Below the pieces are notes generated by a model that was not told the DNA's origin, made no database searches, and was given only the letters and a program-made list of their open reading frames with translations. From Olsenella uli (lineage in GTDB: Bacteria; Actinomycetota; Coriobacteriia; Coriobacteriales; Atopobiaceae), in assembly GCF_016899935.1 (NCBI RefSeq), contig NZ_JACJJK010000006.1, positions 1-64,000 on the forward strand: DNA of 64,000 bases, written 5' to 3'. Positions 46,831-54,279 of this stretch are shown piece after piece. The position numbers were made by a program, and so were the translations under genes. Position 1 is the stretch's first letter; every line of letters starts with the position of its first letter.

Positions 46831-47682
46831 ATGCTCGTCACCACCAAGGAGATGCTGCTCGACGCCCAGGCTAACCACTACGCGGTCGGCGCCTTCAACA
46901 TCGAGAGCCTCGAGTTCGTCATGGCTGTGCTCGCGGCCGCCGAGGAGACCAAGTCCCCGGTCATCATGCAGACCACGCCCGGCACCGTGAAGTTCGCCGG
47001 CCTGGACTACTTCTACGGCATGGTCAAGGCTGCGGCCGCGCGCGCCACGGTGCCGGTGGCCCTCCACCTCGACCACGGCGACGGCTATGACCGCTGCATG
47101 CAGGCCCTGCGCACCGGCTACACCTCCGTCATGATCGACGGCTCCCACGAGTCCTTCGAGGACAACATCGCCCTCACCAAGTCCGTTGCCGACGCCGGCC
47201 GCGCGATGGGCGTGCCCGTTGAGGCCGAGCTCGGCAAGGTCGGCGGCAAGGAGGACGACGGCCCGGCCGTCGAGGGCGAGAACCCCTACACCGACCCGGA
47301 CGAGGCCCGCGAGTTCGTCGAGCGCACCGGCTGCACCTCGCTCGCCATCGGCGTGGGCACCGCGCACGGCGTCTACACCGAGACCCCGCACATCGAGCAG
47401 GAGGTCGTGAAGGCCATCCGCGCCGCCGTCGACGTGCCGCTCGTGCTCCACGGCACCTCCGGCGTGCCCGACGAGCAGGTCGCCGAGGCCGTCAAGAACG
47501 GCATTTGCAAGGTCAACTACGCCACCGAGCTGCGTCAGGCCTACATGCGCGGCTTCATGGGCTACATGGCCGAGAACCCCGGCGCCTTCGATCCCAAGAA
47601 GCCGGCCAAGCCGGGCATGGAGGAGATCACCAAGCTGGTCAAGGTCCGCATGACCAACCTCGGTTCCGTGGGTCGCGCGTAG
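46831..47682 (+). CDS. Class II tagatose-/fructose-bisphosphate aldolase
   Basis: A 283-residue zinc aldolase. Zinc ligands and catalysis show in VALHLDHGDGYDRC, GTAHGVYTE and VPLVLHGTSGVP, with the nearby Glu/Asp-rich loop VEAELGKVGGKEDD. It cleaves tagatose-1,6-bisphosphate or fructose-1,6-bisphosphate to DHAP and glyceraldehyde-3-P. The short GatY/KbaY-type length and the divergent DeoR gene favour a sugar-specific (tagatose) role, completing the AgaS/PfkB route; a house-keeping Fba role cannot be excluded. GGAAGGGAG precedes the ATG. Confidence 0.87.
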   Translation: MLVTTKEMLLDAQANHYAVGAFNIESLEFVMAVLAAAEETKSPVIMQTTPGTVKFAGLDYFYGMVKAAAARATVPVALHLDHGDGYDRCMQALRTGYTSVMIDGSHESFEDNIALTKSVADAGRAMGVPVEAELGKVGGKEDDGPAVEGENPYTDPDEAREFVERTGCTSLAIGVGTAHGVYTETPHIEQEVVKAIRAAVDVPLVLHGTSGVPDEQVAEAVKNGICKVNYATELRQAYMRGFMGYMAENPGAFDPKKPAKPGMEEITKLVKVRMTNLGSVGRA

Positions 47683-47698: not shown

Positions 47699-47722
47699 GG
47701 CGAGAAGAACGCTCTTCTCGCC
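47699..47722. other. Hairpin made of two inverted copies of the GGCGAGAAG word
   Basis: GGCGAGAAGA and TCTTCTCGCC flank a 4-nt loop (ACGC), giving a perfect 10-bp stem. It sits in the 77-bp gap between the convergent aldolase and fruR genes, where it can serve as a terminator for both, though there is no T-run. Confidence 0.75.
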
Positions 47723-51430: not shown

Positions 51431-52372
51431 CTAGCCGCAGAGACGGAGGGCCTCGTAGGCGCAGCCGTACATGGCGGCCTGGTTGCCGAGGCCGGCGGCC
51501 TCGATGCGCACGTTCTTGCAGGTGGGCAGCGCGATGGCCTGGAAGCGCTCGCGCAGGCGCGGCGCGAAGGTCGCAAACGCCCCCGCCACGCCGCCGCCGA
51601 TGAGGTAGAGCTCCGGGTCCATCACGCAAGAGATCTGCGACATGGCGAGCGCCAGGTAGTCGCACATCTTGTCCACCGCGATGCCGGCGCACTCGTCGCC
51701 GTTCGCGAGGGCCTTGAAGACGGAGAGGGTGTCCGTGGCGTGTTCCACGTGCACCGGCGTCACGCCGCGCCGCTCGCACTCCTCCAGGTAGAGGCGCACC
51801 ACGCCCTTGGCGGAGGCGTACTGCTCCAGGCAGCCGTGGCGCCCGCAGCCGCAGGTGAGCGGCTCGTCGCGCTCGACGGTGATGTGGCCGATCTCGCCGC
51901 CCGCGCCAAAGGCGCCCGCGACCAGCCGGCCGCCCGTGACCACGCCGCCGCCCACGCCCGTTCCGAGGGCGATCAGCACGAAGCTCTGGACGCCGCGCGC
52001 CGCGCCGCCCCACACCTCGCCGAGCGCGGCCGCGTTGGCGTCGTTGACAAAGGCCGTGGTCGCGCGAGGGAAGGTCGCGGTCATGGCACCGACGAGGCCC
52101 TCCGGGTCGAGCTGGATGTTGGGGAGGAAGCCCACCGTGCCGTCGTCGGCGACGGGCCCGGGGATGTCCAGGCCGCAGGCGATGACGTCGGCCGGCGCGC
52201 TGTCGTGCGCGGCGAGAACGCGCGTTATGCCCGAGGTCACGACCGCGTATGCGTCCTCGTCCACGAGCGCCGGCGTGGGGATCTTGCGCTCCTCGAGCAG
52301 CTCGCCCTCCGGCGTGAAGAGGCCGACCTTGATGCTCGTGCCGCCAACGTCGATGCCAAGAACCCTGTCCAT
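51431..52372 (-). CDS. ROK-family glucokinase
   Basis: A 313-residue sugar kinase. The ATP site is LGIDVGGTSIKVGLF, the catalytic Asp is in VNDANAAALGE, the phosphate loop is ALGTGVGGGVV, and the ROK zinc motif is CGCGRHGCLEQYAS. It probably phosphorylates glucose taken up without a PTS or released from maltodextrins by the GH13 enzyme; other hexoses (N-acetylmannosamine, fructose) are possible. GGGAGC-type site before the ATG at 52370-52372. Confidence 0.9.
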   Translation of the reverse strand: MDRVLGIDVGGTSIKVGLFTPEGELLEERKIPTPALVDEDAYAVVTSGITRVLAAHDSAPADVIACGLDIPGPVADDGTVGFLPNIQLDPEGLVGAMTATFPRATTAFVNDANAAALGEVWGGAARGVQSFVLIALGTGVGGGVVTGGRLVAGAFGAGGEIGHITVERDEPLTCGCGRHGCLEQYASAKGVVRLYLEECERRGVTPVHVEHATDTLSVFKALANGDECAGIAVDKMCDYLALAMSQISCVMDPELYLIGGGVAGAFATFAPRLRERFQAIALPTCKNVRIEAAGLGNQAAMYGCAYEALRLCG

Positions 52373-52549
52373 GGGAGCCTCCTTCGTCGGGCGCGCCGCG
52401 CCGTCGTCTCTGTCCTGACCCTTGATGATACGAGGCGGGGCGGCGGGCGGCGAGCACTTTGGCGCGAAGGGCGGCGGCGGCTTCGCAGCCGGTCGCAAGC
52501 GGGCGAGAAGGACGGCGGGCGCGGGCCGGGCGGGCGGGCGCGCGGCGCA

Positions 52550-52690
52550 GGTTATGCGCACTCCCGTAGGTTATGCGCAGCGTCACGGGCCATGGTTCTT
52601 CTCGCCGGGCCTTCTAGCTGCGGACATACAAAACGGTCCCGTGCGCACAACCTTGAGGATTGCGCATAACCCGCGGGATTGCGCATACCC
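52550..52690. repeat. Array of 11-bp words at 19-bp period in inverted halves
   Basis: GGTTATGCGCA occurs at 52550-52560 and 52569-52579. Its reverse complement TGCGCATAACC occurs at 52661-52671, with one-mismatch copies at 52642-52652 and 52680-52690. Within each half the period is exactly 19 bp. The element lies in the 377-bp divergent gap (52373-52749) between glucokinase and carboxypeptidase. A -10-like TACACT (52715-52720) follows it. Confidence 0.92.
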
Positions 52691-52749
52691 GTCTCGGGCG
52701 GCGCGCGGCCGGACTACACTGGGACGAGCACCCAACCGAAGGGGGAACC

Positions 52750-54279
52750 ATGGCCGAGGTCAACGCCGCGCTCTCCAACCCGAGGGCCGACATCGCCGCG
52801 CTCGACGCGCTCGAGCGCACGCTCTTCTCGCTGCGCTACGCCCTTGACGAGATCGGCTCGCTGGGGCCGGTGATCGACCCGCCCAAGGCCACGGCCGAGC
52901 GCGGGGAGGCCCTGGCCGAGCTGGAGCGCGCCCGCGTGGAGGCGCTCTGCGACCCGGACGTGGGCGACGTGCTCGCGCGGCTCGCCGCCACCCCCGAGCT
53001 GCTGAGCGAGACCCAGCGCGCCCAGGTCCGCGTGCTCACGCGCGACCGCAACGCCCTCGTGCGCATCCCCGCCGACGAGCAGGCCGCCTTCAGCCGCCTC
53101 ACCTGCGAGGCCGAGGACGTCTGGCGGCGCGCCAAGGCCGCGAACGACTGGGAGGCCTTCGCGCCCTACCTGGACCGCATCGTGGAGGCGCGCCTGCGCA
53201 TGGCCGCCGCCCGCGACGCCGCGCGCGACCCCTACGACGTCTGGCTCGACGAGTACGAGCCCGGCTGCGACGCCGCCTTCTACGACCGGTTCTTCTCGCA
53301 GGTGAAGGACTGCGTGGTGCCGCTTCTGGCCGACTGCATGGCCAGCCGCTCCAAGCCCTCGCGCGCCTGCGTGCGCGGCCGCTTTGACGAGGGCCGCCAG
53401 TGGGAGCTGGCGCGCGACCTCGTGGCCCTGGAGGGCGTGGACGAGGGCGCCCTCTGGCTGGGTCGCACCGAGCACCCGTTCACGGGCGGCCCCTCCACGG
53501 GCTTTGTCCTCATCGCGAGCCACGCCCACGAGGACGACGTACTCTCCAACGTCTTCTCCATGCTGCACGAGGGCGGCCACGCCCTCTATGAGCAGGGCGT
53601 AGACCCCGCCTACCGCCTCACCTCGCTCAAGGGCGGCACGTCGATGGGCATGCACGAGGCGCAGTCGCGCTTCTTCGAGAACCTGGTGGGGCGCTCGGAG
53701 GCCTTTACGCCCGTGCTGCTGGAAACCCTCGCGCGCCACTTCCCCGGGCGCTTTGCCCGCGTGACGCCGCGCCAGCTCTACCTGGCCGAGAACTGCGCCG
53801 AGCCCGGGCTCATCCGCACCGAGGCCGACGAGCTCACCTATCCCCTGCACATCCTCGTGCGCTACGAGATCGAGCGCGCGCTCTTCTCCGGCGAGACGCA
53901 CGCGGCCGACGTCCCGCGCCTCTGGGCCGAGAAGTACCGTGCGTACCTCGGCGTTGAGGTGCCCGACCACGCGCGCGGCGCGCTGCAGGACACCCACTGG
54001 TCGGGAGGCGACTTTGGCTACTTCCCCACCTACGCGCTGGGCTCGGCCTACGGCGCGCAGCTCAAGGTGGCCATGGTGGCCGACGGCGTGGACTTTGACG
54101 GCGCCTGCGCGGCGGGCGATCTGGCCCCGGTGCGCGCGTGGCTGGGCGAGAAGATCTGGCGCTGGGGACGTTCCAAGGACTCCGGCGAGCTCATCGAGGC
54201 GGCGTGCGGCGAGCCCTTCTCGCCGGTCTACTACACCGACTACCTCACCGAGAAGTTCTCCGCGATCTACCGCCTGTAA
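52750..54279 (+). CDS. M32-family metallocarboxypeptidase
   Basis: A 509-residue cytoplasmic zinc carboxypeptidase of the thermostable carboxypeptidase 1/Taq type. The zinc motif HEGGH is in FSMLHEGGHALYEQGVDP. The following GTSMGMHEAQSRFFENLVGRS carries the third ligand Glu, and the family C-terminal half (LHILVRYEIERALFSGE, DTHWSGGDFGYFPTYALG) is clear. It trims C-terminal residues from peptides. The ATG at 52750 has GGGGGAA upstream. Confidence 0.93.
   Translation: MAEVNAALSNPRADIAALDALERTLFSLRYALDEIGSLGPVIDPPKATAERGEALAELERARVEALCDPDVGDVLARLAATPELLSETQRAQVRVLTRDRNALVRIPADEQAAFSRLTCEAEDVWRRAKAANDWEAFAPYLDRIVEARLRMAAARDAARDPYDVWLDEYEPGCDAAFYDRFFSQVKDCVVPLLADCMASRSKPSRACVRGRFDEGRQWELARDLVALEGVDEGALWLGRTEHPFTGGPSTGFVLIASHAHEDDVLSNVFSMLHEGGHALYEQGVDPAYRLTSLKGGTSMGMHEAQSRFFENLVGRSEAFTPVLLETLARHFPGRFARVTPRQLYLAENCAEPGLIRTEADELTYPLHILVRYEIERALFSGETHAADVPRLWAEKYRAYLGVEVPDHARGALQDTHWSGGDFGYFPTYALGSAYGAQLKVAMVADGVDFDGACAAGDLAPVRAWLGEKIWRWGRSKDSGELIEAACGEPFSPVYYTDYLTEKFSAIYRL

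Follow-up and report, generated by a model that had tools for sequence, protein, structure and literature searches.

The array at the window locus

The window, i.e., the whole stretch of 64,000 nucleotides that was analysed, belongs to an Olsenella genome (G000; 2.1 Mb, 131 contigs) and carries a 141-bp element (52550..52690) between two divergently oriented genes. A ROK-family kinase gene (glucokinase-like; PF00480) lies on the reverse strand at 51431..52372, its start separated from the element by 177 bp, and an M32 carboxypeptidase gene (PF02074) starts 59 bp beyond the element on the forward strand (52750..54279). The divergent position between a glucokinase and a carboxypeptidase gene, given in an earlier sequence-only reading of this DNA, is borne out by these gene families and starts (52372 and 52750). 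The element as a whole has no strand and comprises two direct units, a 62-bp centre and three inverted units. Units L1 (52550..52560) and L2 (52569..52579, 19 bp past L1) are exact copies of GGTTATGCGCA on the forward strand. On the reverse strand, R2 (52661..52671) is a further exact GGTTATGCGCA, and R1 (GGTTGTGCGCA; 52642..52652) and R3 (GGGTATGCGCA; 52680..52690) have one mismatch each. The same reading had described five identical 11-bp words, two direct and three inverted, at a 19-bp step with 62 bp between the halves; the arrangement, the step and the 62 bp between the inner units were confirmed, whereas only three of the five words are identical. The centre (52580..52641, forward strand) is related across 16 copies of 141 bp (see below). 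It contains the 12-mer GTTCTTCTCGCC (52595..52606, forward strand), which is abundant elsewhere in the genus, and to the right of this a core stretch TCTAGCTGCGGACATA (52613..52628, forward strand) that falls within the consensus catcTAcCTGCggaTaTa. In the window, unit matches with up to two mismatches numbered 25 against 11.4 expected, and those with no or one mismatch were the five array units and no others.

A dispersed repeat family in the genome

A search of G000 for two 9-mer units with 8–12 bp between them returned 25 exact pairs, all with a 19-bp step, and none for the reversed pattern. With up to three mismatches in the full unit pair, 50 pairs at the 19-bp step were found genome-wide, compared with 0 for the reversed pattern; the random scatter that would have told against the earlier reading was therefore not seen. 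Copies of the element were located at 17 places, 16 of which span exactly 141 bp with the layout of two units, 62 bp and three inverted units; these 16 include a degenerate copy (C71:170706) and a copy without one unit (C49:157194). Two extra units bring the seventeenth copy (C71:237853) to 179 bp. Both orientations of the element occur in this genome. The copies are intergenic by our own gene calls, in which some over-extended called starts overlap a copy. By the same automatic calls, 12 copies lie in co-directional, four in convergent and one in divergent gaps, and no clear bias was seen relative to 50 element-free gaps of at least 60 bp (34 co-directional, six convergent and ten divergent).

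The window copy is the sole copy in a divergent gap among the 17. It had been suggested that the array might be an operator. Its location between two divergent starts, close to that of the carboxypeptidase gene, would suit local control of the ROK kinase and M32 carboxypeptidase genes, as would the presence of the element at this locus in three genomes (G000, G014 and G028). However, the 16 other copies adjoin unrelated genes, and 27 of the 30 genomes examined are without the element at the window locus, which makes regulation of the flanking genes unlikely. Moreover, a candidate −10-like hexamer of the carboxypeptidase gene, TACACT (52715..52720, forward strand; by eye), is kept in five close relatives without the element (G003, G004, G016, G025 and G029; by eye). 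An operator function at this locus is thus very unlikely. The window array looks less like a switch for two adjacent genes than like a single member of an undescribed repeat family dispersed over the chromosome. The family seems new, although dispersed palindromic repeats as a kind are already known; no published description of a 19-bp array family was found, as judged from titles and abstract openings of the papers listed, with subscription journals mostly uncovered.

Conserved and variable parts of the element

Across the 16 copies of 141 bp, the information per column was 1.38–1.82 bits in the units, 0.52–0.85 bits in the spacers and on average 1.04 bits in centre columns 45–80; the unit values are partly circular, as the units were used to find the copies, whereas the centre values are independent of recruitment. 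The core sequence across the G000 copies reads ggTtcTtcTcgcCAgg.catcTAcCTGCGgaTaTa. Pairwise identity of the 16 centres had a median of 0.50 in the common orientation compared with 0.26 in the reverse orientation. The R1 slot begins with GGGT in seven of 14 scorable copies, compared with four of 59 in the other slots (p = 0.0005). A start peculiar to one slot is a sign of shared descent, expected for copies of one ancestor rather than for operators arising singly. Outside the outermost units, nothing was clearly conserved beyond about one base (A or C before the unit), and no target duplication was readable, the empty sites being too diverged. The number of units per arm varies between arrays, and the ends are therefore not defined as they are in a transposon.

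The inverted arms could also matter through hairpin pairing, as a foldback RNA or a bidirectional terminator. The folding z-score was −5.1 for the window copy and −3.8, −5.0 and −9.1 for three others, and opposite-arm spacers in the 16 G000 copies paired at 4.4 of 8 positions, compared with 3.8 after shuffling (p = 0.027). However, a low folding energy is given by the inverted units alone, and in 15 Actinomyces-type arrays (described below) the variable arm parts matched no better than chance (p = 0.70). Some copies have a separate terminator-looking hairpin beside them (by eye). The region 51800-53400 of the window gave no Rfam match at E values up to 1, and 14 other loci searched at the Rfam gathering threshold yielded just an aspS leader, which does not lie over an array. 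Taken together, an RNA-level function appears quite unlikely, and duplex binding by a protein is a simpler reading than a hairpin. The foldback element with periodic arms was nonetheless the nearest of the three options offered by the sequence-only reading; its inverted array stood, and what it described is one copy of a dispersed family.

Distribution across genomes

Among 31 congeneric genomes, eight matched the strict pattern and a relaxed pattern added G014 (25 pair matches), giving nine carriers; two of the strict-pattern carriers, G012 and G016, had only 2 and 3 matches. The 19-bp spacing was mostly kept in relatives wherever arrays occur, with a few steps of 17 and 20–21 bp (G012, G016 and G027). 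Carriers and non-carriers, the latter being genomes without a match to the search patterns used, intermingle on a tree of 30 genomes built from one gene. Of 297 genomes drawn evenly from the order, seven matched: five in the genus and two outside it, G231 and G261. The last two are assemblies of 89% and 87% completeness with matches confined to one contig each, and the units of G261 repeat those of G014; these matches possibly come from mis-binned contigs.

When named genome contigs were scanned, 59 stretches matched: 47 in Olsenella or Atopobiaceae records, one in a 3.6-kb Collinsella contig and 11 in Actinomyces, Schaalia and two records that bear the names Xylanimonas and Sanguibacter. The latter two, Xylanimonas cellulosilytica 352_XCEL and Sanguibacter keddieii 250_SKED (L090, L093, L095 and L102), carry Schaalia-type arrays, and the neighbouring genes at L093 resemble those at L092 (Schaalia); the names of these records may be wrong. 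The six Actinomyces/Schaalia-type genomes concerned had 22, 33, 46, 53, 68 and 69 pairs of GGATAGG units at the 19-bp step, compared with 0–1 in the control; they were picked for matching, and the counts are no measure of prevalence. Fifteen distinct Actinomyces-type arrays have 3 + 3 units in 97 bp, the form for which the pattern was designed, and others have different unit numbers per arm. The core GGATAGG-TTATTAA-GCTATCC or its reverse complement is present in five of these 15 arrays, three of which look like the same locus in different species, and the arm of TTRTGCGCA type lies on the same side of the core in all five (by eye).

Four exact-pattern scans of viral contigs gave 0 matches, a comparison of the window element with phage records gave one 26-base match only (E = 0.6), and one Actinomyces-type array had no match in plasmid DNA. 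On these results, a phage, plasmid or viral origin of the arrays was rejected. The searches also bear on the possibility that the units are iterons or DnaA-box-like sites in replication control. Steps of 19 bp are known from iterons, and TTATGCGCA is one base from the DnaA-box-like TTATGCACA. The scarcity of matches in such replicons argues against this reading, which was not upheld, as does the drift of the dominant unit between congeners to GGTTATGCGRCAT in one relative and to CGTTGTGCGCACT in another (see below). A role in replication control is extremely improbable.

Species-specific units

The dominant unit of the family differs by species. It is A-GGTTRTGCGCA in G000 (55 units; C precedes in 18%), C-GGTTRTGCGCA in G020, G024 and G027, A-GGTTATGCGRCAT in G014 (30 units), CGTTGTGCGCACT in G017 (19 units) and GGATAGGTTRTGMRCATCC in the Actinomyces-type arrays (57 units); as units were recruited by GTTRTGCG (GGATAGGTT in Actinomyces-type loci), only the columns outside these words are informative. 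This pattern suggests a trans-acting DNA-binding protein, a role read from the sequence. A protein selecting its own sites, or copying from one locus to another, would best account for the concerted change of the unit at many loci.

Presence, loss and inversion at shared loci

Several array positions are common to different species, and movement of the element is therefore slow or lies in the past. In 15 of 31 genomes, we inspected the gap in which an amylase-like gene and an M20-type peptidase gene (gene names by eye) converge. This gap holds an array in G000, G016, G020 and G024, a collapsed remnant in G027 and other sequence, often another palindrome, in the remaining ten. Differing palindromic elements were seen in it by species (L230, L232, L234, L240, L236, L239 and L237; by eye), as if the gap were a slot for interchangeable repeats. 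The centre of the G020 array is the reverse complement of that in G000 over 84 bp (90.5% identity, compared with 56% in direct orientation), and the left flank of the inverted centre is 93.5% identical between the two genomes over 200 bp. Template switching between inverted repeats could produce such an inversion without a recombinase. The occurrence of an array in this gap in G016 but not in its sister G004 points to import by recombination.

Accessory genes were found between arrays at several loci. In G000, G014 and G027, two arrays enclose an accessory gene that lies downstream (3′) of a gene named aroB-like by eye. These flanking arrays are 87% identical and in opposite orientation in G000, where an EPSP-synthase gene then follows, and they are direct in G014 (96% over 159 bp) and G027 (93% over 142 bp). 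In G020, there is a single array and no accessory gene between the aroB-like and aroA-like genes. Pfam gave no match to the accessory protein (L048:4352-5305, L103:483-1424 and L156) in G000 and NCBIfam none in G000 and G027, and there was no convincing match among solved structures (best E = 0.048). By eye, it resembles small nuclease-like proteins, and a distant homologue (25% identity) occurs in a Collinsella aerofaciens record. Direct arrays also enclose a toxin-antitoxin-like pair that lies between genes named by eye as addA-like and murC-like; these arrays are 93% identical in G020, 85% in G024 and 98.5% in G027. For the G024 pair, a match to the Phd family was obtained with the first protein and a match to RelE below the cut-off with the second. 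In a Collinsella contig, too, direct arrays (94.7% identical over 190 bp) enclose two genes.

The centres of the gene-flanking array pairs were 0.85–1.00 identical in all six pairs, compared with a median of 0.68 and a maximum of 0.81 at unrelated loci (329 comparisons). Across species, the centres at the aro locus (median 0.67, range 0.60–0.77) were not above this background, and those at the addA locus (median 0.76, range 0.66–0.98) were somewhat above it. The alike flanking pairs may reflect gene capture between sites or just conversion between neighbours, and gene conversion could have produced this likeness without a dedicated protein.

Possible mode of action

The explanation we prefer, to which we give about an even chance (roughly 0.5), is that a dedicated protein binds the arrays with one monomer per 19-bp unit and joins both arms over the core, the copies serving now or in the past as recombination substrates. 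One trans-acting protein would bind each asymmetric unit as a monomer, line up along the arm and bring the two arms together across the core. The copies would descend from a common element and persist between genes, and they would serve as a substrate for recombination (duplication, conversion, centre inversion and loss) rather than as operators of adjacent genes. We infer that a recombinase- or transposase-type DNA-binding protein exists and moves, or once moved, the element. The array neighbours inspected included no recombinase or transposase gene, except for one RAYT-type gene at a distance of 3 kb from an array, and a long autonomous form was not noticed among the arrays listed. No DNA-binding gene was shared among the array neighbours by comparison of first residues by eye and a family search of 10 plus 7 proteins. 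The 7 bp between the inner sites of the Actinomyces-type form is too tight for an ordinary miniature transposon. A core-pattern search of the congeneric genomes, with a spacing that fits few copies, gave about as many matches as the reversed control and is uninformative.

A nucleoid-type or roadblock protein might instead coat the units, with sites at the 3′ ends of genes tying down the chromosome or stopping transcriptional read-through. This alternative is possible but doubtful. The unit-pair matches in the six Actinomyces-type genomes (22–69 per genome), together with their lack in viral contigs, would suit such a chromosomal role, and ten of the 17 copies in G000 lie 15–33 bp from a called stop codon. 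The spacers vary more than the units, and the species-specific dominant unit is also in keeping with a coating protein. However, arrays were not found in close sister species, which is odd for a core chromosome function, the gap types of the copies are not clearly unlike those of element-free gaps, and the near-identical flanking pairs and the inverted centre fit recombination better.

The fixed geometry, the species-specific units and the many copies imply a DNA-binding protein that would co-evolve with its sites in common gut and mouth bacteria. Recombination of the arrays by such a protein would amount to a new route for the capture of genes, and a protein that organises the chromosome or blocks transcription would define a new class of array-binding factors in bacteria. 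Under either reading, the array sites are ready-made bait.

Comparison with known repeat and recombination systems

The ends of Tn402-, Tn7- and Mu-type elements carry transposase sites that are direct within an arm, inverted between arms and unequal in number per arm. The arrays share this geometry, with units direct within an arm and inverted between arms, and the likeness is one of geometry only. Unlike these elements, they have no terminal dinucleotide, target duplication or long form that was seen, their unit number varies, and the inner sites nearly touch in the Actinomyces-type arrays. At the attP sites of tyrosine integrases, arm-type sites are arrayed to either side of a core and one integrase binds both arm-type and core-type sites; the Actinomyces-type core, two inverted 7-bp sites around 7 bp, is reminiscent of this; in contrast to attP, the arrays occur in many copies per chromosome, gave no matches in the viral-contig scans and have no integrase among the neighbours inspected.

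Integron attC sites run from RYYYAAC (5′) to GTTRRRY (3′). Like attC, the arrays often lie just downstream of a gene, and accessory genes are found between near-identical copies. Unlike attC sites, the array copies are scattered, and no integrase was found among the neighbours inspected. A recombination system common to Coriobacteriia and Actinomycetaceae, in which a protein coats the 19-bp arms and pairs them across the core and genes are captured between two arrays with a site just 3′ of the captured gene, would resemble an integron built on double-stranded arm-and-core sites; this reading is unlikely. Membership of the attC class itself was rejected, as the arrays end in GGTT...AACC (17 copies, with a single-base change in one of these end words in five), the reverse of the AAC...GTT polarity of attC. 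A relation to the XerC/XerD dif site was likewise rejected, TTATGCGCA differing from either dif arm at at least three positions (by eye). The likely dif site of the genus is ACCGTGATAATATATCTTATGTAAAGT (L172, L173-L176), the core of which occurs once in each of seven genomes, with the full form in all five that were read.

REP, REPIN and BIME sequences, which RAYT transposases mobilise, are short, palindromic, mostly intergenic, dispersed and mosaic, with local near-identical clusters (PMC3116915; PMC3733652), and the REP/REPIN definition given there includes a GTAG or CGTC tetranucleotide at one end of a 20–40 bp palindrome (PMC3733652). The 19-bp arrays are similarly dispersed intergenic repeats with many copies (17 in G000). 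They differ in that the consensus of unit and flank is without a GTAG or CGTC tag, and in that their units are not hairpins but asymmetric sites repeated at a fixed step of 19 bp. Membership of the RAYT/REPIN system was rejected on two further grounds: G014 has arrays and 0 Y1_Tnp matches in a 98% complete assembly, and an array pair was found at 0 of 30 RAYT loci examined. The LuxR regulators of Coriobacteriia were also considered as a lead and set aside, the available part of the article on them naming no matching site (PMC9734109).

Other repeats and features nearby

The 12-mer GTTCTTCTCGSC occurs 363 times in G000 and 32–563 times in each of the 31 congeneric genomes, compared with 0–4 times for the reversed control, and is about ten times denser between called genes than within them (16 sequences, element centres included). 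In the window, it lies in the element centre (52595-52606), and an inverted pair of it (47699-47722, one copy mismatched) forms a hairpin after an aldolase-like gene ending at 47682. The 12-mer may be a separate repeat of the uptake-signal-like or terminator type. At RAYT loci, TTGGGGAC was not enriched (8 of 30, compared with 15 of 30 control loci). The aspS leader RNA (RF02930) found in the Rfam search lies near one array (L058:3836-3916). The RAYT-type (Y1_Tnp) gene 3 kb from one array (L049:7063-7893, i.e., G000:C49:160256-161086) is flanked by ATTGGGGAC-type palindromes, not by arrays.
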